Under the pieces are notes generated by a model. The model was not told the DNA's origin. It saw nothing but the letters and a program-made list of their open reading frames with translations, and ran no database searches. Of a stretch of DNA of 64,000 nucleotides, positions 1,115 to 15,714 are shown piece after piece (position 1 is the stretch's first letter; every line of letters starts with the position of its first letter). Origin of the DNA: Pelagibius sp. Alg239-R121 (GTDB taxonomy: Bacteria > Pseudomonadota > Alphaproteobacteria > Kiloniellales > Kiloniellaceae); the NCBI RefSeq assembly GCF_947331435.1, contig NZ_CAMZOF010000004.1, positions 372,001 through 436,000 of the forward strand. The letters are read 5' to 3'. The position numbers and the translations under genes are program-made.

Positions 1115-2062
1115 CTACATCGACAGCACCAGATCCACGTAGACGCGGTAGTCGAAGATCGTGTCGTCCTTGTCGGTGATGGGGGTTTCCGCGCCCAGGC
1201 CGAGCTGAATGTTGTCGTCGAAGCGGTAGCGGAAGCCGCCGCCGGCCGTGACAGTGGTGTCGCGGTCTTCGCTGCCGAAGTTCAGCACGTCCACGCCGTC
1301 CAGATCGGCCAGAGCGCCGGTCGTGCGCTTGCCGTTGTCGATCGCGGTGAAGCCGTTGAGCTCCACCAGCGGGAAGAAGCCCTCGAACAGCTCGTAGTCG
1401 CCGTGCAGGGAGTAGTGCAGGATCGAGGTATCCTCGTCGGCATCGAGAGCGACGTTAGCGCCGACGCTGGCCTGAAGCCCGAAGTCGCCGTAGACGGTGG
1501 AACCGGTCAGGAAGGGATTGAGAAAGCCGTCACCGTCGCCCTGCAACTCAATGCCGCCGGTCTCCAGGTCATTGATCGGAATCTCGTAGCGCAGGCCGGC
1601 GGTCAGAATGGTCTCGTCCTCGGGCCGCGAGATCAGTGCGTACTTGAAGCCCAGGGCGACGTTGGCGAAGCCGGATTCGTCGGGCAGGACCTCGTCGAAA
1701 TCGAAGTCGGCGTAGCCGTCCTTGGTGGCGATGAAGCCCAGGCGGTCGGTGATGGCGACGCGCAACTGGAGTGCCGCGAGATTGACATCGCCACCGCCGG
1801 TGACGAAATCGTTGGGCAGGGCGTGATAAAAGTAGAAGGCACGGGCTTCGGTGGTGATATGGGGTGTCTCGTTGAAGATTGGATTGGTCAGGGGGGCGAC
1901 GTAGCGGCTGTGTTTGCCTTCGCCCAAGGAACCTTCGAGGTCGAAGCCGAAGGGGTTGAAGGTATCGTCCGCCGCCAGAGTCTGTTCGGACGCGGCACCT
2001 GCCGCCAATAGGACCGAGAGCGCGGTGATACAGGCCGCGCCTCTGCAACGCCAATTATTCAT
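1115..2062 (-). CDS. Outer-membrane beta-barrel protein (putative)
   Basis: 315 aa. The start at 2062 is chosen because GGAGAA sits 5 bases upstream and a signal peptide follows directly (hydrophobic ITALSVLLAAGAAS, then a likely cleavage before ADDTF). A longer frame runs to 2308 but has no secretion signal. The mature chain shows alternating polar/hydrophobic strands, many Gly, Asp and aromatic residues, and ends in RVYVDLVLSM, a pattern typical of a final beta strand, although the last residue is Met rather than the usual Phe/Trp. No named porin family is recognised. A barrel for passive diffusion or an envelope structural role is inference. It is transcribed alone and convergent with the kinase gene. 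Confidence 0.75.
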   Translation of the reverse strand: MNNWRCRGAACITALSVLLAAGAASEQTLAADDTFNPFGFDLEGSLGEGKHSRYVAPLTNPIFNETPHITTEARAFYFYHALPNDFVTGGGDVNLAALQLRVAITDRLGFIATKDGYADFDFDEVLPDESGFANVALGFKYALISRPEDETILTAGLRYEIPINDLETGGIELQGDGDGFLNPFLTGSTVYGDFGLQASVGANVALDADEDTSILHYSLHGDYELFEGFFPLVELNGFTAIDNGKRTTGALADLDGVDVLNFGSEDRDTTVTAGGGFRYRFDDNIQLGLGAETPITDKDDTIFDYRVYVDLVLSM

Positions 2063-2696
2063 GTCTTCTCCGTTTCGCTCCGCCGTTCGTATCGGGGCGG
2101 AAGCTTGCAGTTTCATTGACCTGCCCTGTGGTCGGCCGGAATTCAGAAACGACCGGCCGCTTGCGGAACCCGAAGGCTCAACGAGAGAAGTCCGTCGTCC
2201 TCTACAGGCGCGACAGCGGTTTTGGATCCAAACTAAAAAGAGCGGCCATTTTGGGGGGAGGATCCCGCAGGGCAGCGAAAGAAGAAGGCATATCCAGAGT
2301 AGGCACATTGATGCAGGTCAATTCCCTGAAAGGTAGTGACGCGACAGCCTCGGATTCCTATTTCGCGGGTGACCCAGTCACCGGTCTTTCAGCGATGCAA
2401 CGAATGATTACACGGTTCGGGCATTGTGTGATCCGGATACGATTTGATGATGTCGGAAAGCTATTTCCTGTGTTGAAAAGTAATGCCAGGTGCTCCTCTT
2501 CCCAATGTTACTATGGAAGGTTGCCCTGATGTCTGATCGGCTCCAGAAAGCCTCTCCCTGAGGTCAGGTGGATCGCGACGCAGAGCCATAGCGATTTGTT
2601 ATCGAGCCTATCGCTCGATTATAATTTTTTAGCCCCTTATGCCCCCCACAAAATGAAGGTGGATAGTTTCAGTCTGTCCAAAAGCGACAGAACAAT
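2063..2696. other. Intergenic region without a supported gene
   Basis: About 630 bases between the porin-like gene and the operators of the TRAP cluster. Plus-strand frames at 1914-2336 and 2116-2529 are open but have no ribosome site, no recognisable family and unnatural composition. The right end becomes AT-rich (TTTAGCCCCTTATG around 2625-2640), as expected near a promoter. Confidence 0.5.
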
Positions 2697-2744
2697 TGAC
2701 TATATGTTCCAAATGGAACAATTTAGATTGTACCATTTGGAACA
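2696..2744 (+). promoter_or_regulatory. Tandem MarR-type operators and promoter of the TRAP operon
   Basis: Two 16-bp palindromes lie 24 bp centre to centre: TGTTCCAAATGGAACA at 2705-2720 (perfect 7-bp arms, 2-bp spacer) and TGTACCATTTGGAACA at 2729-2744 (one mismatch). A third, perfect copy is in front of the panB-like gene at 8552-8567, next to the MarR gene. A -35-like TTGACT is at 2696-2701, and ACAATT 16 bases downstream could be a weak -10. This would place operator 1 between the two elements, a usual position for a repressor. Binding by the local MarR protein is inferred from this arrangement. Confidence 0.75.
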
Positions 2745-2856
2745 ATAAATGTGCGGCGAAGCAAGAAAAGCCGCGGTCGCGGTCGGTGCTGACAGGGCCG
2801 GCCTGGCAAGGGCCAATCTGATATTGGCTAGCCTGAAATGGGGAGGAGATACCAAA

Positions 2857-3912
2857 ATGAAATCGACGCGAACCGGGATGGTGCTGTTTGCGGCGCTGGG
2901 CATGGCCTTCAGCGCCGGAACGAGCACTGCGGCCGAAAACTGGAGCATGGCGACGTCCTGGGGTGGCGGACCACCGCTCGAGACCGCCGCCAAAGGCTTT
3001 GCCGAGATGGCTGCCTTCCTGACCAATGATGAAATTAAGATCGAGGTCTTTCCGGGCGGCACGCTCGGCAGCCCACTAAAGGTTACTGAAACCGTCCGCA
3101 ACGGTGTCGCCGAAATCGGTCATCACTGGGTTGGCTACGATTGGGGCATCGACAAGACGACTGTGCTGTTCGGTGGCTGGACTGGTGGTTTGAATGCTGA
3201 AGAGATGATCCATTGGATCTATGAAGGTGGCGGCCTTTCCATGTGGCAGGAATACAAGCGCGACAAATTCGGCGTTGTTTCTTTCCCTTGCGGAATCTAT
3301 CCGCGCGAAGTGGGCCTGCATTCCACAAAAAAAGTTCAAACGATCGCTGACTTTAAAGGACTCAAGCAGCGCACGGCCGGAGCCTGGGCAGAAATTTCGG
3401 CCGAGCTGGGCGTTTCTACCGTGATCCTGCCGGGCGCTGAAGTCTATCCGGCGCTGGAGCGCGGCGTCATCGATGCCGTGGAGTGGTCGACTCCTTATCT
3501 CAATAAGTCGGCGGGTTTCTATAAAATCGCGAAGTACATCGTCTTGCCCGGCTATCACCATCCGACCTCAGTGCTGGAGTGCAATGTGAATGCTGAGGTC
3601 TGGGACCGGATTGGTGAAAGAAACCAACAGCTTCTTCTTCTGGCCGGAAAACTCACAACCCACAAGGTCTATGAGGAAACCGGGCATGAGGATGCTTCCG
3701 CTTACAAGTTCTATGAAGAAAGCGGCAATGAAATCGTCGTCGTCAACGACGAGGTGATTTCGAAAACGCAGGAACTGGCTCAGGCCTGGGCCGACAAAAC
3801 CTCAGGTGAGCTCGGCGGCTGGTTTACAAAGATCCTTGAGAACCAGCGAGCCTACAAAGCGCTCTGGGCCAATGCCCACAAGTATCGCGACACCAAAGCG
3901 CCAGCGAAGTAA
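2857..3912 (+). CDS. TRAP transporter substrate-binding protein (DctP family)
   Basis: 351 aa periplasmic binding protein. The start at 2857 is preceded by GGGAGGAGA with normal spacing and begins a Sec signal peptide (MKSTRTGMVLFAALGMAFSA, cleavage near TAA-EN). Family marks include FPGGTLG, the substrate-carboxylate Arg region LKQRTAGAWAE and the GVIDAVEWSTP segment. EWSTP resembles the EW motif of TakP-type proteins that bind 2-oxoacids, so a monocarboxylate or 2-oxoacid ligand is plausible but not shown. It is the first gene of a dctPQM operon and lies 113 bases behind the tandem operators. The TRAP genes face the oxygenase/aldolase genes that share the operator, so the imported compound is probably their substrate. 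Confidence 0.95.
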   Translation: MKSTRTGMVLFAALGMAFSAGTSTAAENWSMATSWGGGPPLETAAKGFAEMAAFLTNDEIKIEVFPGGTLGSPLKVTETVRNGVAEIGHHWVGYDWGIDKTTVLFGGWTGGLNAEEMIHWIYEGGGLSMWQEYKRDKFGVVSFPCGIYPREVGLHSTKKVQTIADFKGLKQRTAGAWAEISAELGVSTVILPGAEVYPALERGVIDAVEWSTPYLNKSAGFYKIAKYIVLPGYHHPTSVLECNVNAEVWDRIGERNQQLLLLAGKLTTHKVYEETGHEDASAYKFYEESGNEIVVVNDEVISKTQELAQAWADKTSGELGGWFTKILENQRAYKALWANAHKYRDTKAPAK

Positions 3913-3996
3913 AGGCGCCCAGTAAACCGGCGGAGGCCAGGGTCGTGGAGGCAAAGCTCCGCGGCCCCCTTGGCTACCGCCGCAGGGTTTTTTCCG

Positions 3997-4545
3997 ATGC
4001 TTGTAATCCTTCGCAGTTTGGTCCGTGGGATCGAAATGATCACGCGCTGGTCTGGCTGGCTCGCTGCCGCTACCGCTGCGCCGCTCATGCTTGCCATGGT
4101 GTGGGAGGTCGTTTCTCGCTACGCCTTCAACCAACCGACCTTTTGGGCCTATGAGCTTGGCTATATGCTGATGGGCGCAGGTTTGATGCTTGGCATTGCC
4201 TACGCCATGCAAACCCGCAGCCATGTCAGAGTCGACTTTCTCTATGGAGCCCTGCCGCGGCGTGGCCAGGCGCTGGTGGATTTGTTCGGCTTTGTTTTCC
4301 TTTTGCCCATGGTCCTATGGATGACCCTCGGCCTCTGGGATTATCTGGTCTACGCCTATGTGAACAACGAAGTCTCGGGTGAAAGCGCCTGGAATCCGGT
4401 CGTTTGGCCCTTCCGCGTGACCTTCGTCACCGGCTTTGCCTTCTTTGCTCTCCAAACTCTGGCCGAGATCATCAAGTCCGCGCACACGCTTTTCAGCGGA
4501 GTGCAACTCGACACCAGATCCGACAGCGACGGGGCTCGTCTGTAG
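3997..4545 (+). CDS. TRAP transporter small permease (DctQ family)
   Basis: 182 aa with four membrane segments (WLAAATAAPLMLAMVWEVV, YMLMGAGLMLGIAYAM, FGFVFLLPMVLWMTL, VTFVTGFAFFALQTL) and the SHVRVDFLY segment typical of DctQ. ATG 3997 is preferred, with AGGG about 9 bases upstream. A TTG at 3970 would add nine residues and ATG 4036 would remove thirteen. It forms the membrane complex with DctM and connects to DctP. The DctM start follows one base after the stop codon, so translation is probably coupled. Confidence 0.9.
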   Translation: MLVILRSLVRGIEMITRWSGWLAAATAAPLMLAMVWEVVSRYAFNQPTFWAYELGYMLMGAGLMLGIAYAMQTRSHVRVDFLYGALPRRGQALVDLFGFVFLLPMVLWMTLGLWDYLVYAYVNNEVSGESAWNPVVWPFRVTFVTGFAFFALQTLAEIIKSAHTLFSGVQLDTRSDSDGARL

Positions 4546-4546
4546 G

Positions 4547-5860
4547 ATGGATCTCGCTCTTCTTATGTTCCCGGTCCTGCTGATAGCGATTTTCGCGGGG
4601 ATACCGGTTGCTTATTCGCTGATGGGCGTTTCGCTCGTGTTCGGCATTCTGCGATTCGGCGACAAGGCTGTCTTCCAGTTTGTCACCAAAGTTCAGGATG
4701 TTTCGGGAAATTACGTTCTCGCCGCACTTCCGCTGTTTATCTTCATGGGCGCAATGCTCGAAAAATCGGGCATTGCCGAACGCCTGTTCGAGGTCGTGCA
4801 TCTTTGGACCCGGCGTCTTCCCGGCGGGCTCGCTGTCGGCACCATCCTGATGGGGGTAATCTTCGCAGCGGCCAGCGGTGTGGTGGGCGCGACCGAGACA
4901 GTCATCGGGTTACTCGCGATCCCGATCATGATGCGCCATAACTACGACAAGGCGCTCATCTCCGGTACGATCTGTTCTGGAGGCTCACTGGGCACCGTAA
5001 TCCCACCTTCGGTATTGGTTGTGATCCTGGCACCTGTTGCGGATGTTTCTGTCGGTGATCTGTTTGCAGGGATCCTGTTCCCGGGCCTTATCATGGCAGG
5101 CCTTTTCATCCTCTACATCCTTGGACGTTGTATTCTTGACCCTGCCGCCGCGCCCTATGTTGAGCCGGAGGGCCCGGAGCCGGCGCTGTTGGAAAAGATC
5201 GGCAAGACGGTGATTGCGATGGTGCCGCCTGTCATCCTGATCTTCATGGTGCTTGGGACGATTTTGCTCGGCTGGGCAACTGCAACCGAAGCGGCAGCCT
5301 GCGGTGCTGTCGGTTCCATTGTTTTGACCATGCTGTACAAGAATTTTTCCTTCGGCGTTCTCGTCACCGCTTTCCGTCAGACCCTGCTGATCACCGTGAT
5401 GGTCCTGACGATACTGCTGGCCGGCAACATTTTTGCTGGTGTGTTCATCGCCTCGGGTGGCCTTGGAGCCATGAAGAGTGTCCTTGCGGCCGCCAATCTG
5501 GGCGACTGGGGAACGCTGGCGCTGATACTTTTCCTGACATTTCTCGCTGGCTTTGTGTTGGATCTGGTTTCGGTGATCCTCATCATCATCCCGATCGCCA
5601 TTCCAATCATCAAGATCATGGGTTTCGACCCGATCTGGTTCTGCATCCTCTTTCTCGTCGTCCTGCAAACCAGCTATTTGACGCCGCCCATGGCGCCCTC
5701 AATCTTTTATCTGCGTGGCATCTCTCCGCCGGAAATCACGCTTGGCCATATGTACCGCGGCGTCGTGCCCTTCATCGCGCTGGAAATCATCACTCTGCTG
5801 CTGGTGGTTTTCTTCCCGAGCCTCGCTCTTTGGTTGCCATCGCAGTTGATAGGGTTTTGA
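4547..5860 (+). CDS. TRAP transporter large permease (DctM family)
   Basis: 437 aa, about 12 hydrophobic segments. Family marks include GIPVAYSLMG near the N terminus, AALPLFIFMGAMLEKSG, GVIFAAASGVVGATETVIG, GGSLGTVIPPSVLVVI and LTPPMAPSIFYLRG. This is the sodium-coupled transport subunit that works with DctQ. The start at 4547 is one base after the dctQ stop; longer readings of this frame overlap dctQ and lack homology. The gene ends 26 bases from the convergent stop of a PhyH gene, so the TRAP operon consists of three genes. Confidence 0.95.
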   Translation: MDLALLMFPVLLIAIFAGIPVAYSLMGVSLVFGILRFGDKAVFQFVTKVQDVSGNYVLAALPLFIFMGAMLEKSGIAERLFEVVHLWTRRLPGGLAVGTILMGVIFAAASGVVGATETVIGLLAIPIMMRHNYDKALISGTICSGGSLGTVIPPSVLVVILAPVADVSVGDLFAGILFPGLIMAGLFILYILGRCILDPAAAPYVEPEGPEPALLEKIGKTVIAMVPPVILIFMVLGTILLGWATATEAAACGAVGSIVLTMLYKNFSFGVLVTAFRQTLLITVMVLTILLAGNIFAGVFIASGGLGAMKSVLAAANLGDWGTLALILFLTFLAGFVLDLVSVILIIIPIAIPIIKIMGFDPIWFCILFLVVLQTSYLTPPMAPSIFYLRGISPPEITLGHMYRGVVPFIALEIITLLLVVFFPSLALWLPSQLIGF

Positions 5861-5886
5861 AGCAGGTCGATCGCCTGCGGCCAGCT

Positions 5887-6774
5887 CTACGCCGCATCTT
5901 CCCCTGACTGCGCTGCGTAGATCGAAGTGTAGCCGCCCGACCAGTCGGGGGGTATCTGGCAAGGCCGCGGATCATGGTGCGCCCATTTCACCGGCTGTCC
6001 GCGTATAACCCGATAGGCATGGGACGAGGGGTCGGGATGCGGCGTATAGGGCTTGGCATCGCTGGAGCTGTAACAGTTGAGAAGCAGCGGTCTTGGTTGT
6101 TTAGATTTGCTCGCCGGAGAGTAGTGGAGCGTGCGGCAGTTGTGGATCGTGATGGACCCGGCAGGTCCGGTCAGATAGTCGGCCTGACTCATATCCACTT
6201 TTGCCGCGTCCTCGTCGCTAAGCATTCCGGTCCAGTTTCCCTTTGCGTCATACTGATCATAGAGCGGTTTGTTGTGCGAACCGGGCAGCACGGCGAGTGG
6301 TCCGTTCGACATATCTGTATCCGCCAGATAGCAGCCGATCGTAAAGACGTTGTAGTTGGTGTGCGGGAAGAACTGGATATCCTGATGCCATTTCACCGTG
6401 TCACTTTTGTCGAACCATTTGAAGTTCAGTTTCGAGTGATGATAGGTCACGTTGGGGCCGGCGAGATCGGCGGCCACATCTGCCATTAGTCCCGAAGCGA
6501 AACCCCAGTAGGCTTCGTGTTGGTCGTCCGGGCGCTTCAGGCGCCGTAAAACGGGACTGTCCTTTGTATGTCCGGGACCAAGATCGAAGATCTTTCCCGA
6601 CTGCGTCTCAGTTCGGCTTGCGTCGACAAATTCTTCGGTAACCTTCACGAGGTCGGCAAGGAGGTCAGCCGGCACCAGGCTCTCGACACCAATGTAGCCT
6701 TTTTCGAAGTAACGCTCACGCTGCGCCTGCGTCAGCACCCGTGCAGGATAGGAAAGAATCTCTTCGGGAGTCAT
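5887..6774 (-). CDS. Phytanoyl-CoA dioxygenase (PhyH) family oxygenase 1
   Basis: 295 aa, Fe(II)/2-oxoglutarate-dependent oxygenase fold. ATG 6774 has AGAGGAGA upstream; a frame to 6816 would lack this. The iron triad is visible as H130-Q-D132 (VKWHQD) and H217 (TLHYSP), and R228 (PRPLLLNCY) would bind the 2-oxoglutarate carboxylate. GPLAVLPGSH (159-167) is the usual PhyH turn. The C-terminal part after residue 240 (DPSSHAYRVIRGQP) is not typical of EctD or PhnY, so the substrate is unknown. It is the last gene of the operon panB-like, PhyH 2, PhyH 1, 42 bases after its neighbour, and is probably repressed with it through the operator at 8552. Confidence 0.88.
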   Translation of the reverse strand: MTPEEILSYPARVLTQAQRERYFEKGYIGVESLVPADLLADLVKVTEEFVDASRTETQSGKIFDLGPGHTKDSPVLRRLKRPDDQHEAYWGFASGLMADVAADLAGPNVTYHHSKLNFKWFDKSDTVKWHQDIQFFPHTNYNVFTIGCYLADTDMSNGPLAVLPGSHNKPLYDQYDAKGNWTGMLSDEDAAKVDMSQADYLTGPAGSITIHNCRTLHYSPASKSKQPRPLLLNCYSSSDAKPYTPHPDPSSHAYRVIRGQPVKWAHHDPRPCQIPPDWSGGYTSIYAAQSGEDAA

Positions 6775-6816
6775 TCTGGATCTCCTCTTTTGGAGGTGGT
6801 AACCGGGTAGACGCAA

Positions 6817-7653
6817 TCAGGCGCGCAGCTCTGTTTTGCCAGTGCCCTCATAGACGGCGGCGATCAGGCGCTGCGTCGAATCCGCATGAGTCGCCAACGC
6901 CGCTTCATCAAGATCGGCCTCGGGCCCAGGCAACAGGTCGAAGTGACTATAGTTATCGACGCCTCGAACCAGAACCGCGGCGTCTCTCAGTTTTGTCTGG
7001 CGTGCTGATGTCGGTATGTAGCGAATGGCAAATCCGATACGGCGCCCGTCGGAATGGTTGGGGTGCGAACCATGGGCGAGAAGTACATGGTGCAAGGAGA
7101 ACTCCCCGGCGGACAGCGTTACGTCAGTGGCCCTATCCTCGTCCACTTCGACTTCGACCTCCTGTCCGCGGCTCAGCAGGTTGTTCTCGTGAAAGGTATC
7201 CTTATGAGGTTGCTGACCGCTTCGATGGCTTCCGGCAAGGAACTTCATCGCACCGTTTTCGACTGAGGCTTCAGAAAGGGCAAGCCATGCGGTGACGATC
7301 TTGTCGGTAGGCTCCAGCCCCCAATAGGTGGCGTCCTGATGCCAGGAGACGTAGTTGCCGTCTTTGGCCTCTTTGATAAAAAAGTTCGTCGCCCAGCAAA
7401 GGATGTCCGGCCCGATAACGGCTTCGACCGCGTCCAGGATCTTCGGGTTGTGCACCAGTTCGTAGGCCCAGGTGAAGAGGAAATGCGTTTGATGGCGCAT
7501 GTTCGACTGCAGCGGGCCGCCGTTCAGCGTCTCATGGGCTTCGAGCTGGGCCCGGTAGCCCGCTGCCTCTTTGGCTGTCATGGCCTGGATCGGAAACTGA
7601 TAACCTTCGCGCTCGAAGGCCTCACGGTTTGCCAATTTACTTTCTGGGGTCAT
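6817..7653 (-). CDS. Phytanoyl-CoA dioxygenase (PhyH) family oxygenase 2
   Basis: 278 aa. The PhyH fold shows the iron ligands H105-x-D107 (SWHQDATYWG) and H194 (LLAHGSHPN), with R204/R205 before GFAIRYIPTS as the 2-oxoglutarate-binding Arg. GAMKFLAGSH (135-143) is the conserved turn. The WGLEPTD segment after the HxD motif is frequent in oxygenases acting on small polar substrates. It has little evident identity with its neighbour PhyH 1 outside the motifs, so the two are probably successive enzymes rather than a recent duplication. It starts 5 bases after the stop of the panB-like gene, implying co-translation. Confidence 0.9.
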   Translation of the reverse strand: MTPESKLANREAFEREGYQFPIQAMTAKEAAGYRAQLEAHETLNGGPLQSNMRHQTHFLFTWAYELVHNPKILDAVEAVIGPDILCWATNFFIKEAKDGNYVSWHQDATYWGLEPTDKIVTAWLALSEASVENGAMKFLAGSHRSGQQPHKDTFHENNLLSRGQEVEVEVDEDRATDVTLSAGEFSLHHVLLAHGSHPNHSDGRRIGFAIRYIPTSARQTKLRDAAVLVRGVDNYSHFDLLPGPEADLDEAALATHADSTQRLIAAVYEGTGKTELRA

Positions 7654-7658
7654 GTTGC

Positions 7659-8519
7659 TTATCCTTTAACAACCAGCGCAGCCGAAAATTTCGCGGCTTC
7701 TTCCGCAGGCATCTTGTAAACATGTTCGCTGTCGGGAAAGGCGCCGGAGCGCACTTCCTCCGCATAATCGGCGAAAGCCTTTGTTGCCACTTCACCGACA
7801 TTACCATAGCGCTTGGCGAATTTTGGTTTGAAGCTGTCGAAGGATCCGATCAGATCGGCGCCCAGTAAAAGCTGGCCACAACCTGCACCGCCAGCACCGA
7901 TAGAGAAGGTGAAGATTTCGACTGCATCGTCCACGGCCTTGCCGACTTCGGGCGGTACTGCCTCGATCTCGAAACCAACCGCACCTGCTTCCTCGATCGC
8001 CCGGGCGTTGTCGATGATCCTAAAGGCATCCTCCGCCGTCCGGCCCTGCAGCTTGAAACCGCCATAGCTATTGACGAAGTGCGGACACATGCCGACGTGG
8101 CTCATGACCGGAACCCCGGCGTCGGCCACCGCTTTGATGATCTCGAACTTTTCGCGTCCGCCCTGCAGCTTCACTGCTTCGGCGCCCGCTTCTTTCATCA
8201 GACGCAGTGCGTTCTCAACGGCCAGTTGCGGCGTCGCGTAAGATCCGAAAGGCATGGCAACAATGCAGAGTGTGTTCGGCGCGCCCCGTCGCACGGCCTT
8301 GATATGCTCGATCATCTGATCGACCGTCATCGGTAATGTGTTTGGATGCCCGTAGGTTATCATGCCGAGTGAATCACCAACTGCGACGACATCCACGCCG
8401 CCGCGCTCGGCCCACTGGGCCATCAGATAGTCGGTGACCGAAGCAAGAACGACGCGCTCGCCTTTGCATTTCTTTTCGTGCAGATCGGGGATCGTAAGTT
8501 TCTTAACGGCATCCGACAT
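7659..8519 (-). CDS. PanB-like (ketopantoate hydroxymethyltransferase family) protein, altered metal site
   Basis: 286 aa, a TIM barrel of the PanB/PEP-mutase superfamily and clearly PanB-derived: VGDSLGMITYGHPNTLPMT (47-65), DAVEIFTFSIGAG, and FKPKFAKRYGNVGE near the C terminus. Compared with E. coli PanB, the metal ligand D45 (here D49), Lys112 (K117) and catalytic Glu181 (E186 in IEAVP) are kept. However, D84 of ADLPF is Ala (A88 in VAMPF) and E114 of KLEGG is Gln (Q119 in KLQGG). The DGQ of GIGAGxxxDGQ is CGQ. True pantothenate synthesis is therefore unlikely; an aldol or retro-aldol role in the island's catabolic pathway is inference. It is the first gene of the leftward operon and carries its own operator 33 bases upstream. 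Confidence 0.88.
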   Translation of the reverse strand: MSDAVKKLTIPDLHEKKCKGERVVLASVTDYLMAQWAERGGVDVVAVGDSLGMITYGHPNTLPMTVDQMIEHIKAVRRGAPNTLCIVAMPFGSYATPQLAVENALRLMKEAGAEAVKLQGGREKFEIIKAVADAGVPVMSHVGMCPHFVNSYGGFKLQGRTAEDAFRIIDNARAIEEAGAVGFEIEAVPPEVGKAVDDAVEIFTFSIGAGGAGCGQLLLGADLIGSFDSFKPKFAKRYGNVGEVATKAFADYAEEVRSGAFPDSEHVYKMPAEEAAKFSAALVVKG

Positions 8520-8531
8520 GCGACACTCCTT

Positions 8532-8567
8532 AATACCGAATCAAGGTATTTTGTTCCATTTGGAACA
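8532..8567 (-). promoter_or_regulatory. MarR-type operator before the panB-like operon
   Basis: TGTTCCATTTGGAACA at 8552-8567 is a perfect palindrome (7-bp arms, 2-bp spacer) matching the two sites at 2705-2744. Beside it, AATACC (8532-8537) and GGTATT (8545-8550) form a second small inverted repeat. The site lies 33 bases upstream of the panB-like start and 88 bases upstream of the divergent MarR start, so one protein could control both directions. Confidence 0.75.
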
Positions 8568-8654
8568 TTATATCAGCTATAAATTTAGCTCACAAGATTC
8601 GTTCCTGCTTCATGGGAGGGGCAAAGGAACCCTTGCATTTGTAACGGAGACCGC

Positions 8655-9149
8655 ATGACTGAACGCCCCGCAGATACGCTCCTGCCTGCATCCAATCCGC
8701 GCAATCTGGCGGCGATCTTTGATCGCAATGAGGTCAAGGATACCTATCGGATTTCCTATCTGGCCAACTCGCTTGTGCTGCCCGTCTATGACGATATCAA
8801 GCGGGATTTCGGTCTCAATCGCGGCGAATACCTTCTGCTGTTCTGTCTTGCGCACATGCCGGAGTTGACTGCTCAGGACGTCGCGAACATGACAGGTCGT
8901 CCGCGTAACTCCATTTCACGTGCGGTGCACCGCATGCTCTCTGAGGGTTATCTCAACCGCATTCCCGACGCCGTCGACGGCCGTCAGGCCTGGCTCACGA
9001 TTACACGGAAGGGTCGGAAGCTGCATGAGACCATCGTCAAGGGTTTCGAGGCGCGGGAGGAACAGATTCTAGGCGCGCTCGACAAAAAAGAGCGCCAGAC
9101 TCTGGACCGCATCCTGCAAAAGCTCGTTCTGCATACTGCAGGGCTGTAA
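8655..9149 (+). CDS. MarR-family transcriptional regulator
   Basis: 164 aa winged-helix regulator. ATG 8655 has GGAGA 6 bases upstream. The core shows the N-terminal dimer helix (YRISYLANSLVLPVYDDIKRDFG), the helix-turn-helix (LTAQDVANMTGRPRNSISRAVHRMLSEGYL) and the wing with DAVDGRQAWLTITRKG, where the family usually has DxRD/DRR. Divergent from the panB-like operon and followed 69 bases later by PhyH 3. The palindrome TGTTCCA-N2-TGGAACA in its promoter region, also present before the TRAP operon, fits a MarR dimer site in size and symmetry. It is the likely repressor of the island, released by the substrate or an intermediate. Confidence 0.92.
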   Translation: MTERPADTLLPASNPRNLAAIFDRNEVKDTYRISYLANSLVLPVYDDIKRDFGLNRGEYLLLFCLAHMPELTAQDVANMTGRPRNSISRAVHRMLSEGYLNRIPDAVDGRQAWLTITRKGRKLHETIVKGFEAREEQILGALDKKERQTLDRILQKLVLHTAGL

Positions 9150-9218
9150 AGTAAATGGCGTGAGGCTAATTTTTTCGCTTGAGTTGTCAGGCGCCACTTT
9201 GCGGAATAACAAAGAGCG

Positions 9219-10022
9219 ATGACCAGAAATTTTCTGTCCAAAGTTGAACTCCAGGCCTATCGGAATAAAGGCTGGATCGTACCGTCGTATCGACTTCCCG
9301 AGACACTGGTCGAAGAGATGCGCGTTGAGTATGCGGCCTTGCTGGCGCGCAATGCCCATCTCGAGAGCGACATCATGCTGGCGCCGCACCAGATCAACGG
9401 CGGATCCCAGGGTGTCATTGGCTCGGAAAAGTGGCTGGAATTCGCAACCCGGCCAGAGCTGCTGGAGATCGCCGCGCAGCTGATCGGCGAAGACATCATC
9501 CTCTGGGGCACGACGATCTTCGGCAAGCCCGCGCACAACGGCAAGGAGACGCCCTGGCACCAGGACGGGGAGTATTATCCGATCCGGCCGCTGGAAACCC
9601 TGACCATCTGGATCCCGCTGGACGATGTGACGCCGGAGAACGGTCCGATGCGGTTTATCCCGGGGTCACACCGGGCGCGCGAAGTCTTTTCTCATTCCTG
9701 GGTCGAAGGCGACAACAAAACCATCAACCTTGTTTGCGACGCCGAGCAGTTTGACGAGACCACGGCCGAGGATCTGATCCTGGAAGCCGGGCAAGTGTCA
9801 TTCCACGACGTCTATATGATCCACGGTTCCCGCGCCAACCGGACCGACAAGCGCCGTGCCGCTTTTATCGTGCGGCTCATGCCGGCGACTTCGCTTTACG
9901 ATCACGCCCTGGGCGCGGAGATCGGCAAACAGCATCCGGCGCAGGGCTACGGCGTTCGCCCGCTCTATCTGGTGCGCGGGCGGGACGTGAACGGGAACAA
10001 CAATTTCAGCATCGGGCATTGA
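9219..10022 (+). CDS. Phytanoyl-CoA dioxygenase (PhyH) family oxygenase 3
   Basis: 267 aa. The iron ligands are H114-Q-D116 (PWHQDGEYY) and H202 (MIHGSRANRT), and R213 (KRRAAFIVR) is placed for 2-oxoglutarate. The turn GPMRFIPGSH is complete, and length and motifs fit a typical functional PhyH. It follows the MarR gene by 69 bases on the same strand and is likely co-transcribed with it. No operator copy was seen in that gap. This is the third oxygenase of the island. The sequences around the HxD motif of the three differ, so separate substrates or successive oxidation steps are possible. Confidence 0.9.
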   Translation: MTRNFLSKVELQAYRNKGWIVPSYRLPETLVEEMRVEYAALLARNAHLESDIMLAPHQINGGSQGVIGSEKWLEFATRPELLEIAAQLIGEDIILWGTTIFGKPAHNGKETPWHQDGEYYPIRPLETLTIWIPLDDVTPENGPMRFIPGSHRAREVFSHSWVEGDNKTINLVCDAEQFDETTAEDLILEAGQVSFHDVYMIHGSRANRTDKRRAAFIVRLMPATSLYDHALGAEIGKQHPAQGYGVRPLYLVRGRDVNGNNNFSIGH

Positions 10023-10028
10023 AGCCCG

Positions 10029-10145
10029 ATAGAGCAAAATGCGTTTTATCGGACTCAAAATTCTCCGCCTGTCGATCAGCAATAGGCTGATCTCAGACGC
10101 GAGTTTTGAGACACTATGGTTCACAGAAACCGCATTGCGCTATAG
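10029..10145. repeat. Nested palindromic intergenic element
   Basis: The stretch after the PhyH 3 gene folds on itself in layers: GATCAGC/GCTGATC (10074-10080, 10086-10092), GACTCAAAA/TTTTGAGAC (10052-10060, 10104-10112), and an imperfect outer pair GATAGAGCAAAATGCG / CCGCATTGCGCTATAG. The build resembles RIME/REP-like palindromic elements of alphaproteobacteria. The elements at 37117 and 52536 are of similar kind but not clearly the same family. Confidence 0.5.
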
Positions 10146-10152
10146 ATAAGCA

Positions 10153-10184
10153 AAAAGGGCAACGCCTTTCGGGGTTGCCCTTTT
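10153..10184. terminator. Rho-independent terminator
   Basis: AAAAGGGCAAC (10153-10163) pairs with GTTGCCCTTTT (10174-10184): an 11-bp stem with a 10-base loop and A and T tracts on the two sides, so it can act in both directions. It closes the MarR-PhyH 3 unit on one side and the sox operon with its PEP-CTERM tail on the other. Confidence 0.85.
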
Positions 10185-10211
10185 GTCGAACCGCTTTGCG
10201 GTTTGAAAGCT

Positions 10212-10541
10212 TTAGCGCAACTTGCGGCGCGTCCAGCCGAGACCGGCAAGACCCAGGCCCAACAGTGCGAGCGTGCCGGGCTCCGCGACCGCGACCACCG
10301 GCGTGGCAACGTCGTAACTCGTCGCCTGGATCTGAATTCCGAAGAAACTGGCGCTCGAACACGCCATGCCGCCAACGCAGGTCACGGTGATGCTCGAGAA
10401 AGACAGCCCGCCGAACAATGCGGTCAGATCGTTGGTTTCGATTTGAGAGGTACTCTCAACATCAAATACTCTGACAACAGGCTCAATACTGCCATGGTGT
10501 TTCGATTGGAGAGAGCAGTTACTGCGTGACCGCAACCCCAT
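10212..10541 (-). pseudogene. PEP-CTERM protein remnant (C-terminal part only)
   Basis: The last 25 residues of this frame are a textbook PEP-CTERM sorting signal: VAEPGTLALLGLGLAGLGW followed by TRRKLR. Before it come about 80 residues of low-complexity, Ser/Thr-rich exported-type sequence. No signal peptide exists upstream: the frame runs straight into soxG, and the first usable ATG (10541) lies inside the soxG 3' end. PEP-CTERM proteins need a signal peptide, so this is best read as the 3' end of a gene joined to soxG by deletion. A 109-residue read-through product remains possible. Nothing else of an exosortase (EpsH/XrtA) system is in the window. Confidence 0.65.
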
Positions 10542-11151
10542 ATTCTTCCGCTGCGTTCTCGATCCAGCGCCAGAGATACTCCGCGAAGCTGCTTCGGACG
10601 TAGATCTCGAAGCTTGGCTTATCGGCCTCCAGGCGATGGAAAACCACCACCGCCTTGGCCATGTCGCTCTGGGCGCAACTGCCCGGGGCGAAGACGCTGT
10701 CGTGGAAATCCAGGGTGCAGCCCTTGGCCAGGGTGTCCGCCGCCGAGGCGCCGGAGGCCGCGATGCAGGTGTAGCCTTCGCCAACATCCGTGACCACGGC
10801 ATGCTGGCCGGCGAGGGCCTCACGCAGCTTGTCGGCGACGGGCGCCGTGTCCGCATCCGTGATGATCCACCACTCGTCCGGGCCGAGCCAGAGCAGGGTG
10901 ATGTCCTTGCCCGTGTTGACGCTGTTGGGCATCAACGGCGGATCTGCGCCCAGGACCGACTTGACGGCCTTTGTGAACTCTTCCGACTTGGGATTGCCGC
11001 GCAGATTGACGATGCGGCGGAACTGACGTTCTGCCATCGTTACACCAGTGTTGCCGTGTTCGGCCGCGATCCGGCTGGGCAGGGCGAGCTGCGACAGCGG
11101 GCTCTGTCTGAGATAGGCCTCAACCACGGGTCCGCTCTCCTTCCTTGTCAT
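10519..11151 (-). CDS. soxG: Sarcosine oxidase gamma subunit
   Basis: 210 aa, fourth gene of a soxBDAG operon. The gamma subunit is a GcvT-like small subunit without cofactor that helps assemble the heterotetramer. Family marks: LWLGPDEWWIIT in the middle, DVGEGYTCIAASGASAADTLAKGCTLDFH, and SFAEYLWRWIENAAEEYG at the C terminus. It starts 32 bases inside soxA, a usual overlap in these operons. Its 3' end is abutted by a foreign PEP-CTERM fragment, but the protein itself appears full length. Confidence 0.94.
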   Translation of the reverse strand: MTRKESGPVVEAYLRQSPLSQLALPSRIAAEHGNTGVTMAERQFRRIVNLRGNPKSEEFTKAVKSVLGADPPLMPNSVNTGKDITLLWLGPDEWWIITDADTAPVADKLREALAGQHAVVTDVGEGYTCIAASGASAADTLAKGCTLDFHDSVFAPGSCAQSDMAKAVVVFHRLEADKPSFEIYVRSSFAEYLWRWIENAAEEYGVAVTQ

Positions 11152-14137
11152 AGAAAACCACGCCGGTGACCGTGCAGGTCACGACCTTGCCGTCGGCCAG
11201 CGGGGCGTAAAGCTTACTGCCCATGCGCGCCCGGCCGCCCTTGATCAGGGCCATGGCGATTGAGCGGCCAACGTTCGGGCTGTGATAGCTGGAGGTCACG
11301 TGCCCAAGCATTTTCATGGGGGGCTTGTCTTCGACTTTCTCGACCAGCTGCGCGCCTTCCGGCAGCACCTGTTCGGGGACATCGGTGAGCAGGCCCACCA
11401 GCTGCTTGCGGTCATCTTTGGACATATCCGCACGGAACAGCGAGCGGCGACCGACGAAGTCCTTCTTCTTCGAGACAATCCAATCCATGCCCAGATCGAA
11501 GGGCGTAACCGAACCGTCGGTTTCCTGGCCGACGATGATAAAGCCCTTCTCGGCGCGCAGCACGTGCATGGCCTCGGTGCCGTAAGGTGTGATGCCATAC
11601 TTTTCGCCGGCGGTCATGACCGTCTGCCAAAGCGCCGCACCGTAGCTCGCGGGCACATTGATCTCGTAGGAGAGATCGCCGGTGAAGGAGATCCGGAAGA
11701 CCCGGGCAGGAATGCCTGCGGCCGTGCCTTCGCGCAGGGTCATAAAGGGGAAGGCCTCGGCGGAAAGGTCAATGTCCGTCAATTCGGCCAGAAGATTGCG
11801 GGCGTTGGGACCGGCGAGCGAGATGGTGGCGAACTGCTCGGTGACCGAAGTCAGATAGACCTCGAGTTCCGGCCATTCGGTCTGCAAGTACTCTTCCAGA
11901 TGACCCAGCACCGGCGCGGCGTTGCCGGTGGTGGTGGTCATAAGGAAGTGGTTCTCACCAAGCCGGCTGGTGACGCCGTCGTCCATCACCATGCCGTCCT
12001 CACCCAGCATCAGGCCGTAACGGCAGGCGCCGACTTTCAACTGGCTCCAGGCATTGGTGTAGATCCGGTTCAGGAATTCCGCTGCGTCTTTGCCCTGGAT
12101 GTCGATCTTGCCCAGGGTCGAAGCATCCATCACGCCAAGTGAGTCGCGGCAGGCTTTGACCTCGCGGTTGACCGCCTGATGCATATCCTCGCCGGCAATC
12201 GGGAAGTACCAGGGACGCTTCCACTGGCCGACGTCCTCGAAGGCCGCGCCGGCGTGCTCGTGCAGGGCGTGCATCGGCGTCTTGCGGACGGGGTCCAGCA
12301 GATCGCCGACGTCGCGTCCAGCGAAGACGCCGAAGGTGACCGGCGTATAGGGTGGTCGGAAAGTGGTGACTCCCACGTTGGGGATTGGACAGCCAAAGTG
12401 TCCGGCAACGATACCGATGGCATTGACATTGCTGGTCTTGCCCTGATCGGTGCCCATGCCCGTGGTGGTGTAGCGTTTGACGTGTTCGATCGAGCGGTAG
12501 CCTTCACGCAAAGCAAGATGCAGGTCGGCCGCCGTCACGTCGTTCTGAACGTCGACGAAATGCTTACCGCCATGTCCCAGGGGCTTGTCGCCAGGCACCA
12601 GCCACATCCATCGGGCAGGCAGGAAGTTCCTGTCCTCGGCTTTGGGTGGGGCCCTCTTGCGGCCCTTGGCCTTGAAACCGGTTTTCGCGGCGGTCGCGAT
12701 CCCCGCATCGTGTCCCTGAGTCAGGCAGGCGCCCAATCCGAAATTGCCCGAGCAGGCACCAGCCGTGACGGATTCCTGCGCCGGCGTGCCTGGAACAAAG
12801 CAGGCGTAGTCGTCGTCGAAGACAATCTTGCCGCGCGACTGGCTATGCAGATGGACAGTAGGGTTCCAGCCGCCGGAGACCGCGACCAGATCACAGTCGA
12901 TCTTTTCGCCGCCGCCGTAGACTTTTTCGCCGTCTTCGCTCAGCGGCGCGACAAGTACCGCTTTGACCCGCTTGTCACCTGCAGTTGCGATGACGGCGTG
13001 ATTGCCCAGGATGCGCAGACCGGCTTCGCGGGCCTGCTCGGTCATCGGCCCTTCCGGATCGCTACGCAGATCGACAATAGCCGCAACGTGGATACCGGCC
13101 TTATGCAGATCCAGCGCGGCGGCATAGGCACCGTCGTTGTTGGTAAAGATCACGGCCTTCTTGCCCGGCTTGACGCCGTAGCGGTTTACGTAGGTCCGGC
13201 AGGCGCTGGCCAGCATGATGCCCGGACGGTCGTTGTCAGAGAAGACCAGCGGGCGTTCGATCGCGCCGGTCGCCAGCAGGACCTGCTTGGCCCGCAGTTT
13301 CCAGAGGCGGTGGCGCGGCAGACTGGCGGGTTTGGCGTTTTGGGGCAGGTGATCGGTCAGGTTCTGCATCAGGCCGATGAAGTTGTGATCGAAGTAGCCG
13401 TAGCACTGAGTGCGGGTGAGAATACGCACGTTCTCCAGGCCTTCCAGTTCGGCACGAGCTCCCTCGACCCATTCAAGTGCCGGTTGACCCTGGATCTCGG
13501 CATCCGCTTCGCTAAGCAGATCGCCACCCAGGGCGTTGTCCTGCTCCGCCAGGATCACCCGCGCGCCAGCTCGACCGGCGGAGAGCGCAGCGGTGAGGCC
13601 GGAGGGCCCAGCGCCAACCACAAGCACATCACAATGGGCAAAAGTCTTGTCGTAGCTATCCGGATCCGGACCTTCGGGGGCCTTGCCCAATCCAGCGGCT
13701 TTTCGGATCGCGCTCTCATAGGTCATCCAGAAGGAGGCCGGCCACATGAAAGTCTTGTAGTAGAAGCCCGAGGGCAGAAGGCGTGAGGCGAAATTGTTCA
13801 CGATGCTGACGTCGAACTCAACGCTCGGCCAGCAGTTCTGGGAGGAGGCAACAAGGCCGTCGACCAGCTCGATCTGTGTGGCGCGCAGATTGGGATCGCT
13901 GCGTGCGCCTTCACCGACCTGAATCAGGGCGTTGGCTTCCTCGGCACCGGCGGACATGATGCCGCGCGGACGGTGGTACTTGAAGCTGCGTCCGACCAGA
14001 TGGACGCCATTGGCAATCAGGGCCGAGGCGAGGGTGTCACCCTCGAATCCCAGATAGACCTTACCGTTGAATTGGAAGGAAACGGGCTTGGAGCGGTCGA
14101 TCAGTCCGCCTTGGGTCAGACGAAAACGTGCGGGCAT
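11120..14137 (-). CDS. soxA: Sarcosine oxidase alpha subunit
   Basis: 1005 aa, the usual length. The N-terminal part (about 15-100) is the ferredoxin-like fold with GDTLASALIANG and RSFKYHRPRG. A dinucleotide-binding motif (VLVVGAGPSGLTAALSAGRAG, around 170-190) opens the NAD-binding oxidoreductase half. The C-terminal 400 residues are a GcvT-like aminomethyltransferase domain (CRYGLMLGEDGMVMDDGV, LAGPNARNLLAELT, GYEKGFIIVGQETDGS-type region) that hands the oxidised methyl group to tetrahydrofolate. With SoxB it oxidises sarcosine to glycine and yields methylene-THF and H2O2. It lies 15 bases after soxD. Confidence 0.97.
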   Translation of the reverse strand: MPARFRLTQGGLIDRSKPVSFQFNGKVYLGFEGDTLASALIANGVHLVGRSFKYHRPRGIMSAGAEEANALIQVGEGARSDPNLRATQIELVDGLVASSQNCWPSVEFDVSIVNNFASRLLPSGFYYKTFMWPASFWMTYESAIRKAAGLGKAPEGPDPDSYDKTFAHCDVLVVGAGPSGLTAALSAGRAGARVILAEQDNALGGDLLSEADAEIQGQPALEWVEGARAELEGLENVRILTRTQCYGYFDHNFIGLMQNLTDHLPQNAKPASLPRHRLWKLRAKQVLLATGAIERPLVFSDNDRPGIMLASACRTYVNRYGVKPGKKAVIFTNNDGAYAAALDLHKAGIHVAAIVDLRSDPEGPMTEQAREAGLRILGNHAVIATAGDKRVKAVLVAPLSEDGEKVYGGGEKIDCDLVAVSGGWNPTVHLHSQSRGKIVFDDDYACFVPGTPAQESVTAGACSGNFGLGACLTQGHDAGIATAAKTGFKAKGRKRAPPKAEDRNFLPARWMWLVPGDKPLGHGGKHFVDVQNDVTAADLHLALREGYRSIEHVKRYTTTGMGTDQGKTSNVNAIGIVAGHFGCPIPNVGVTTFRPPYTPVTFGVFAGRDVGDLLDPVRKTPMHALHEHAGAAFEDVGQWKRPWYFPIAGEDMHQAVNREVKACRDSLGVMDASTLGKIDIQGKDAAEFLNRIYTNAWSQLKVGACRYGLMLGEDGMVMDDGVTSRLGENHFLMTTTTGNAAPVLGHLEEYLQTEWPELEVYLTSVTEQFATISLAGPNARNLLAELTDIDLSAEAFPFMTLREGTAAGIPARVFRISFTGDLSYEINVPASYGAALWQTVMTAGEKYGITPYGTEAMHVLRAEKGFIIVGQETDGSVTPFDLGMDWIVSKKKDFVGRRSLFRADMSKDDRKQLVGLLTDVPEQVLPEGAQLVEKVEDKPPMKMLGHVTSSYHSPNVGRSIAMALIKGGRARMGSKLYAPLADGKVVTCTVTGVVFYDKEGERTRG

Positions 14138-14152
14138 GTCCGATGTCTCCGT

Positions 14153-14446
14153 TTAGACGTCATTACGCAGGTCGAGCTTGGGCGGTTTGGCGCCCGTCTC
14201 GTAGACCGCGAGGATCTGATAGGAGACTGTGTCGCGCGCGACATTGAACCAACGCCGGCAGCCGCTGGTATGAACCCAGCGCTCCAGGAACACGCCCTTG
14301 GTGTTGCTGTTCATGAAGACGTAATCACCCCACTGTTCATCCGTGAGGTTTTCGCTGTCCTTCGGACGTTCGATATGGGCTTCACCGCCGTAAGAGAACT
14401 CGGTCTCGAAACGCGGACCGCAATAGGGGCAATTGATTTCAAGCAT
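14153..14446 (-). CDS. soxD: Sarcosine oxidase delta subunit
   Basis: 97 aa. Zinc-binding subunit of heterotetrameric sarcosine oxidase; C6-x2-C9 (INCPYCG), with H59 and C63 in WVHTSGC, provides the metal ligands known for this family. The segment DEQWGDYVFMNSNTKG is diagnostic. It is 14 bases behind soxB and 15 bases before soxA in the same operon. Confidence 0.95.
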   Translation of the reverse strand: MLEINCPYCGPRFETEFSYGGEAHIERPKDSENLTDEQWGDYVFMNSNTKGVFLERWVHTSGCRRWFNVARDTVSYQILAVYETGAKPPKLDLRNDV

Positions 14447-14460
14447 GGTCTTTGTTCCCC

Positions 14461-15714
14461 CTAATGAGCAACTGCGGCGGCGCCGTGTTCGTCAACCAGA
14501 TAGCCGCTGTTAAAGCGCTCCAGTGAGAAAGCTTCATTGAGCGGGTGAGGACGGTCATTGGCGATGGTATCGGCAAAGACCCAGCCCGAACCCGGTGTGG
14601 CCTTGAAGCCGCCGGTGCCCCAGCCACAATTGATGAAAAAGCCCTCGACCGGGGTTTTGGAGATGATCGGGCTGGCGTCGGGGCAGGTGTCCACTATGCC
14701 ACCCCACTGGCGCATCATGCGCATGCGTTTCAGGCTGGGGAAGAGTTCGCAGACTGCCGCCAGGGTCTCCTCGGTGACCGGCAGGCTGCCGCGCTGCCCG
14801 TAGCCGACATATTTGTCAACGCCGGCGCCGATTACCAGTTCACCCTTGTCCGATTGACTGATGTAGGCATGGATTGCGTTGGACATGACCACTGTATCGA
14901 TCACCGGCTTGACCGGCTCGGAGACCAAAGCCTGCAGCGGATGGGAGACCAGGGGCAGACGGATCCCGGCCATCTCCGCCATGACCGAGGAATGCCCCGC
15001 CACAACGACGCCGACCTTTTTGGCTTTGATCAGACCTTTCGCGGTCTGGACCCCTACAACTTTACCATTTTCGATTTCGAAACCATGGACTGGGCACTCC
15101 TGAATGATATCGACACCCTGTTCGTCGGCCCGGCGGGCATAACCCCAGGCGACGGCGTCATGGCGGGCCGTGCCGCCGCGCCGCTGCATTGATGCCCCTA
15201 GCACCGGATAGCGGCCATTTCCGCGCAGGTCGATGATCGGAACCAGATCTTTTATCTGCTGTGGAGTCAGGAACTCGGAATCAACACCATTCAGGCGGTT
15301 GGCATTGATCCGCCGTGACAGTTCGCGCAAGTCGTGTTGATTGTGCGCCAGATTCATGACACCGCGCTGGCTGAACATCACGTTGTAGTTCAGCTCCTGG
15401 CTCATCCCTTCCCAGAGTTTGAGCGCATGTTCGTAGAGCGCTGCACTTTCATCCCAAAGGTAGTTCGAGCGCACAATGGTGGTATTCCGGCCCGTGTTTC
15501 CGCCCCCAAGCCAGCCGCGCTCAATTACCGCGACATTGTGAATTCCGTGAAGTTTTGCAAGATAATAGGCTGTTGCCAGACCATGGCCGCCACCGCCCAC
15601 AATGATCACATCGTACGAGGGTTTCGGTTCCGGGCTACGCCAGGCTTCGGGCCATTTCTCATGATAGCTCAAGGCATTGCGCATCAAGCTGAAGATCGAA
15701 TAGCGCGACTTCAT
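14461..15714 (-). CDS. soxB: Sarcosine oxidase beta subunit
   Basis: 417 aa flavoprotein, the subunit in which sarcosine is oxidised. The FAD-binding Rossmann motif [19 protein letters not shown] is at 34-52, followed by [20 protein letters not shown], which includes the conserved turn over the flavin. Near the C terminus, [18 protein letters not shown] is typical of the DAO fold closing the site. First gene of soxBDAG. The GGAG-like box upstream (AGGGG) is 13 bases from the ATG, a long spacing. The AraC-type regulator upstream and divergent is the probable activator. Confidence 0.96.

Follow-up and report, generated by a model that had tools for sequence, protein, structure and literature searches.

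Organization of the Locus

We analyzed a window of 64,000 nucleotides from Pelagibius sp. Alg239-R121 (contig NZ_CAMZOF010000004.1, positions 372,001 to 436,000), in which positions 2696-10022 were suggested in an earlier note to form a self-contained catabolic island with a shared MarR-type operator. Eight genes at 2857-10022 are arranged as an operon for a tripartite ATP-independent periplasmic (TRAP) transporter on the plus strand, a convergent operon with panB-like, phyH-B and phyH-A genes on the minus strand and, divergent from the latter, marR followed by phyH-C on the plus strand. The gene calls made from the sequence alone (DctP, DctQ, DctM, three PhyH-family proteins, a PanB-family protein and MarR) all hold. 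The features of the locus are as follows.

1979..10223, no strand: island, outer limits; no DNA match at the equivalent place in three congeners
2705..2720, no strand: putative operator 1, TGTTCCAAATGGAACA, perfect, upstream of the TRAP operon
2729..2744, no strand: putative operator 2, TGTACCATTTGGAACA, with one mismatch, ahead of the TRAP operon
2857..3912, plus strand: TakP-like substrate-binding protein (SBP; DctP, PF03480), from Pfam and the nearest solved structures
3997..4545, plus strand: TRAP small membrane subunit DctQ (PF04290), from Pfam
4547..5860, plus strand: TRAP large membrane subunit DctM (PF06808), from Pfam and curated models
5887..6774, minus strand: PhyH-A, Fe/2-oxoglutarate (2OG) hydroxylase family (PF05721), from Pfam, WHQD motif
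6817..7653, minus strand: PhyH-B, Fe/2OG hydroxylase family (PF05721), from Pfam, WHQD motif
7659..8519, minus strand: PanB variant (PF02548) without Asp84 and Glu114, from Pfam, curated models and alignment
8552..8567, no strand: putative operator 3, TGTTCCATTTGGAACA, perfect, between the panB variant and marR, at the same place in loci L093 and L183
8567..8595, minus strand: promoter-like TTGTGA-17-TATAAT, a TG preceding the second hexamer, oriented towards the panB operon, consensus match only
8655..9149, plus strand: MarR-family regulator, from Pfam and relatives
9219..10022, plus strand: PhyH-C, Fe/2OG hydroxylase family (PF05721), inside the island, pathway membership doubtful

Comparison With Congeneric Genomes

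The island is missing from the equivalent spot in all three congeners (G036, G037 and G038), in which the flanks are syntenic with the window. The flanking genes, an outer-membrane-type gene on the left (1118-2059) and a soxG-like gene on the right (10522-11151), are 1.8, 2.9 and 6.5 kb apart in G036, G037 and G038, respectively. DNA similarity of the congeners to the window ends at position 1978 and resumes near position 10224. All eight island genes are missing from the equivalent place, save for TRAP matches of 28-36% in G038. The island MarR was not found elsewhere in the congeners at E <= 1e-20 in the search of the order; the searches for the other island genes did not extend to all three complete genomes. 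The eight-gene block is a real genomic island, which bears out the suggestion of a self-contained island, and the best reading is that it was gained horizontally. The GC content of the island is 0.55-0.575, as compared to 0.61-0.63 in the near flanks, but GC content alone proves nothing, because the window at 15-19 kb is equally low.

The spot in G038 (L204, G038:C7:1-9500, at about 1563-6306) contains a different cargo, with another TRAP system, a gluconokinase-like gene and a LacI-type regulator, as named by reading of the open reading frames (ORFs). The insertion spot looks like a hot spot. To the right of the island, the window contains sarcosine-oxidase-type genes (10519-15714), of which the compared part is syntenic in the three congeners. 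These genes were rejected as members of the system, soxG and the covered stretch of soxA being syntenic in three congeners that lack the island.

Candidate Operator Palindromes and the MarR Regulator

The palindrome TGTTCCANNTGGAACA was identified without mismatch at 2705-2720 and 8552-8567 and with one mismatch at 2729-2744, confirming the three TGTTCCA-N2-TGGAACA sites listed previously. Two candidate sites are located upstream of the SBP gene, which starts at 2857, and the third lies in the gap that separates marR from the divergent panB-like gene. In the genome as a whole (8.02 Mb, 48 contigs), there are two perfect copies, both in the island, as compared to approximately 0.012 expected at an assumed, not measured, GC content of 62%. 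Five copies have at most one mismatch, of which three are in the island, and the genome-wide statistic is strong. Of the two other copies, TGTACCACTTGGAACA (L012:1501-1516; C1:1579441 in the same genome) is located about 160 bp before an OmpA-like ORF and the second (L013) lies within an ORF. Sites with two mismatches were given no weight, because the pattern hardly exceeds its reversed control at this level (34 versus 29 at up to two mismatches, forward). The statistic for the window alone is weak, with five matches at up to three mismatches, a shuffle mean of 1.89 and five of 100 shuffles reaching five. Operator 1 was also called terminator-like in a terminator scan, as any such palindrome may be.

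A single promoter-like element, TTGTGA-17-TATAAT, was found on the minus strand (shuffle mean 0.3), which matches the consensus at 10 of 12 positions and would serve as promoter of the panB operon. Its end, at 8567, coincides with the edge of operator 3, and such a placement would fit repression. No comparable promoter was found in the promoter scan at the TRAP-side sites.

The regulator contains a MarR_2 winged-helix domain (47 bits, cut-off 27). The nearest MarR-PanB locus, L093 in genome G124 (identity 73% for PanB, 61% for MarR and 71% for PhyH-A), contains AGTTCCACTTGGAACT between panB and marR, and L183 in genome G367 (PanB 70%, MarR 48%) contains TGTTCCACTTGGAACG in the same gap. The palindrome is conserved with the MarR orthologs, being present in all three sampled PanB loci that have a related MarR (the window, L093 and L183), while its core, TTCCANNTGGAA, is absent from all 16 PanB loci that lack marR (L179-L182, L184-L189, L097, L107, L108, L112, L117 and L135, of which L184 and L188 are short). 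We also scanned 25 loci of MarR relatives (L137-L161, identity 29-61%), and the half-site of the window predicts an upstream palindrome at 19 of these, with a match that no more than 1.5% of shuffles reach (200 per locus, single-base); the independent cases are fewer than these numbers suggest, because several of the loci look like near-copies, L137 is the L093 locus again and L161 belongs to the same genome as the window. Two further MarR relatives, L021 and L022, contain palindrome variants twice each, as read by eye in the printed sequence. Chance palindromes were rejected on the basis of the genome-wide rarity, the recurrence with MarR relatives and the missing core at the PanB loci without MarR.

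The marR genes of L146-L161 are divergent from genes for peptide-type ATP-binding cassette (ABC) binding proteins, creatininase-like proteins, a TRAP small subunit and others, as judged by eye from ORF starts. L161 itself (C3:586591-586992) encodes a second related MarR in the same genome (29% identity), with AGTTCCATTTAGAACT upstream, and is by the same kind of reading divergent from a gene for a peptide-type ABC binding protein. The presence of this palindrome would agree with the three sites serving another regulator, such as the L161 protein, rather than the MarR encoded at 8655, and cross-talk is possible because the operator type is common to many MarR relatives, including L161. The outer pair is T/A in all three sites of the window, however, and an outer-left T occurs in only L138 and L147 among the 19 passing relatives; moreover, a single island holds both the sites and MarR, and the two are again found together in L093 and L183. 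We consider it quite improbable that the sites belong to another regulator.

Taken together, it is well supported that the three palindromes would act as the operator of MarR. From the genomic rarity, the L093 and L183 loci, the 19 relatives and the promoter-like element that touches operator 3, we infer that both operons would belong to a shared MarR regulon, as the earlier note had put forward, and their putative repression by MarR is the best-supported step of the mechanism outlined below. The operator also offers a means of finding regulon members within a broad MarR subfamily.

The PanB Variant

The island protein is named panB by curated models: it scores 298 bits with PF02548 (cut-off 28.7) and 262 bits with TIGR00222 (cut-off 207.6), and also passes PRK00311. 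We aligned 19 cluster proteins, including that of the window (10 from clade 1, which is the window's own, and nine from clade 2), with nine canonical proteins, which comprise three solved structures, five plasmid-encoded PanBs whose genes are each followed by panC, and the PanB encoded beside panC in the same genome as the window. The two clades were first set by search score and later borne out by a tree, in which the canonical proteins, clade 1 and clade 2 are each on one side of a well supported branch; some canonical rows are long-branched, and the tree does not settle whether clades 1 and 2 are sisters.

In all 19 cluster proteins, Asp84 is replaced by Ala, Ser or Cys and Glu114 by Gln (Ala and Gln, respectively, in the window), whereas Asp and Glu are present in all nine canonical proteins. 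Likewise, Gln142 is replaced by His and Val179 by Glu in 19 of 19 cluster proteins and in none of the canonical ones. Five residues, Asp45, Ser46, Lys112, His136 and Glu181, are conserved in all 28 aligned proteins. We take Asp84 and Glu114, together with Asp45, to be the metal ligands of canonical PanB, in accordance with the family annotation; no paper on the roles of metal ligands in ketopantoate hydroxymethyltransferase (KPHMT) was recognized in the literature searched. If Asp84 and Glu114 do bind the metal, the variant is unlikely to act as a plain KPHMT. Judged from its sequence, the island protein is not an ordinary ketopantoate hydroxymethyltransferase. The aldol-type step proposed previously needs to be changed as regards plain PanB chemistry, since Asp84 and Glu114 are lost in the window and in 18 of 18 relatives, yet kept in nine of nine canonical proteins.

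The passing of PRK00311 and TIGR00222 would be expected if the variant were a second KPHMT for the synthesis of pantothenate and coenzyme A. Yet the genome contains a canonical panB that adjoins panC elsewhere, on contig C2, no panC was found among the island genes, where the company is that of TRAP and PhyH genes, and Asp84 and Glu114 are lost, which together make such a role very improbable.

Two individual homologs are of note. A third, very distant PanB homolog in the same genome (L132, C7:198958-199536, 30%) also lacks Lys112 and was left out of the counts. On plasmid pMNOD02 of Methylobacterium nodulans (L135, 11945-14852), a gene annotated as panB is of the variant type and located near a sterol desaturase family gene, and no PhyH or TRAP match was found at this locus.

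Recurrence of the Gene Set

PhyH-A was identified in 70 of 385 genomes of the class (E <= 1e-40) and the PanB variant in 14 (E <= 1e-75). The variant was also found in five of 11 genomes in the order of G124, three of which are among the 14, and in two of 398 genomes drawn from across the phylum, both of which belong to the same order as the window. PhyH-A is present in 12 of the 14 genomes with the variant, as compared to 70 of 385 overall (Fisher p = 4e-8, or 2e-7 without the window's own genome, in a test that ignores relatedness).

Genes were called in the fetched loci with a simple script that missed some genes, and L189 (29% GC), for which no genes were called, was covered by tblastn only. 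In clade 2 (47-51% to the window), seven of nine loci have, close to PanB, both PhyH-A and a complete TRAP system like that of the window, and no MarR; the exceptions are L188, on a contig of 5.9 kb, and L135. A clustered GntR-type gene was found in six of the nine loci (GntR and FCD domains were Pfam-tested in L108, the other members resting on clustering), and a clustered small protein in five, reaching the FA_hydroxylase cut-off in three of the four tested (L097, L117 and L187, not L108). The core of PhyH-A, TRAP and PanB variant is a recurring cluster and, among the other loci that were read, is accompanied by a GntR-type regulator more often than by MarR.

Related assemblages were also observed without PanB, for which no match was found in the stretches L133 and L134. 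L133, on a plasmid of Azospirillum brasilense (4616-14756), contains genes for TRAP, PhyH-A, a clustered GntR, FA_hydroxylase, a phosphoenolpyruvate (PEP)-mutase-family protein, an iron alcohol dehydrogenase and an APH-type kinase, while L134 (Indioceanicola) contains genes for TRAP, PhyH-A, GntR, a flavin adenine dinucleotide (FAD) oxidoreductase and a dihydroxy-acid dehydratase. In L188 (G123:C199), the variant panB and the GntR gene are located beside C45-peptidase-like and ATP-grasp-like genes, as read by eye, the latter being negative in Pfam.

No described pathway with this gene set, nor the PanB branch, was recognized among the titles and abstracts listed from the open-licence PubMed Central (PMC) literature, in line with the earlier note, whose author knew of none. 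The PanB subfamily and the cluster appear to be undescribed, while the component families are known. The regulatory part is conventional, and the enzyme part is the interesting one.

Transporter and Oxygenases

Among solved structures, the SBP is most closely related to 5cm6, 4pet, 2zzv, 4yzz, 4yic, 2hzk (TakP, 2e-33) and 7ug8, which is titled a ketoacid-binding protein. The binding protein would thereby be of the TakP type, as previously suggested. It is nearest to binders of the pyruvate, lactate and ketoacid type, and acidic residues occupy two of the TakP cation positions. The cation of TakP is described in PMC1839085 as held by Gln156, Glu214, the carbonyl of Trp215 and Glu240, besides pyruvate. 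In the window, Glu214 and Trp215 are kept, Gln156 is replaced by Glu and Glu240 by His, with positions placed by us. Ten SBPs of the clade-2 type have Glu and Gln at the two latter positions, and the SBP of L185 differs. These residues would support a cation-assisted small carboxylate as the ligand, without naming it, and uptake of a 2-oxo or 2-hydroxy acid can fairly be inferred.

All three PhyH proteins contain a WHQD motif, at residue 129 in PhyH-A, 104 in PhyH-B and 113 in PhyH-C, which contributes the HxD of the iron site; the distal His and Arg were read by eye. None of the named NCBIfam models reaches its cut-off for these proteins. The Asp of WHxD separates hydroxylases from halogenases. 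A halogenase function was rejected, the Asp being present and the chlorinating-enzyme model far below its cut-off. Hydroxylation by PhyH-A and PhyH-B would follow from the family and the WHQD motif.

The earlier note had counted two or three oxygenations, of which those by PhyH-A and PhyH-B are retained. The inclusion of PhyH-C in the functional set needs to be changed, because none of its 37 relatives (52-84%; six loci under 8 kb, 26 of 15 kb or more) has PanB, MarR, PhyH-A or PhyH-B nearby at E <= 1e-10, and PhyH-C was dropped as a cluster marker. Two of the 37 have a distant DctM and, as a counterpoint, L129 has a gene 39% similar to PhyH-C near PhyH-A.

The best solved relative of PhyH-A is the ectoine hydroxylase EctD, the GntR of the related clusters matches a phosphonate regulator model best and the Azospirillum cluster encodes a PEP-mutase-family protein, all of which could suggest that the island degrades a methylated or cyclic osmolyte or a phosphonate instead of a 2-oxo acid. 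We consider this unlikely, given that all those model matches are weak or far below the cut-off, that the Azospirillum protein, as read by eye, lacks the PEP-mutase signature and that the SBP group points to small carboxylates. The phosphonate route, with weak matches only, was set aside.

Proposed Mechanism

We propose, with a probability of roughly 60%, that the locus is a horizontally gained, MarR-repressed catabolic island for the import and oxidation of a small 2-oxo or 2-hydroxy acid. The MarR repressor would bind the 16-bp palindromes, two before the TRAP operon and one in the gap between the panB variant and marR, and would leave them in the presence of the substrate or an early product. 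The TakP-like TRAP system would import a small 2-oxo- or 2-hydroxy-carboxylate with the assistance of a cation, PhyH-A and PhyH-B would hydroxylate the imported acid, and the PanB-derived enzyme would then act on the product beside its keto group, cleaving or rearranging it in a way that is probably independent of the canonical metal site.

Several observations weigh against this proposal, besides the low GC content at 15-19 kb and the relatedness ignored by the Fisher test. Six of the 25 MarR relatives (L139-L143 and L145) are without a palindrome by the half-site test. PhyH-A is often found elsewhere, with PanB nearby in only six of the 40 PhyH-A loci read. Clade 1 (67-73%, 10 loci) is weakly linked to the other genes, with MarR in three loci and PhyH-A, PhyH-B and TRAP in two each, of which the TRAP of L185 is distant, and the window is the only locus seen with MarR and this TRAP together. 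From the gene contents of the two clades, the window therefore combines PanB and MarR of clade 1 with the kind of TRAP and PhyH-A used by clade 2.

For the last step, we tentatively suggest that the variant represents a new branch of the KPHMT fold, a C-C lyase that functions without the canonical Mg2+ site. Together with the Fe/2OG hydroxylases and the TRAP importer, it would form a so far undescribed route in Alphaproteobacteria, by which small branched 2-oxo acids are first hydroxylated and then cleaved. Lys112 may serve as a Schiff base or acid, or the site may be rebuilt around Asp45, His142 and Glu179. Ketopantoate-type chemistry could also run in reverse, as an oxidative demethylation in which PhyH turns the beta-methyl group of a branched 2-oxo acid into CH2OH (e.g., trimethylpyruvate to ketopantoate) and the PanB variant passes the carbon to tetrahydrofolate. 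Such a route would join all conserved parts, namely an SBP of the 2-oxo-acid type, hydroxylases and an enzyme of the PanB family in which Asp45, Ser46, Lys112, His136 and Glu181 are preserved, but Asp84 and Glu114, the presumed metal ligands, are lost in 19 of 19 proteins, none of the island genes was identified as a folate gene and the adjoining sarcosine oxidase genes are core genes of the genus; we regard it as rather unlikely. New lyase chemistry was given more weight than the reverse reaction, because the residue changes are fixed in both clades. If true, a lyase branch and its pathway are hidden in databases under the label panB.

Comparison With Known Systems

The regulator resembles MarR-family local repressors in its divergent or nearby target, its pseudo-palindromic site and its small winged-helix protein, and differs in that a GTTCCANNTGGAAC-type operator was not found in the literature searched, where among the matches listed for such strings none was recognizable by title as a MarR operator. 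The three island PhyH proteins share the family (PF05721) and the WHxD motif with the PhyH-family Fe(II)/2OG hydroxylases, and differ in falling below every named NCBIfam cut-off. The transporter corresponds to TakPQM-type TRAP systems in having DctP, DctQ and DctM, with TakP among the nearest solved relatives and Glu214 and Trp215 kept, whereas Gln156 is replaced by Glu and Glu240 by His (Gln in the clade-2-type SBPs) at the positions placed by us.

The curated label panB would place the variant in vitamin B5 synthesis, whereas the evidence points to an uncharacterized catabolic route. By sequence, the variant shares with PanB/KPHMT (PF02548, TIGR00222) the family, the fold and residues Asp45, Ser46, Lys112, His136 and Glu181. 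It differs in the changes at positions 84, 114, 142 and 179 in 19 of 19 proteins, in the lack of a panC neighbor and in its island context, as a subfamily whose genomic company is a transporter and oxygenases rather than panC.

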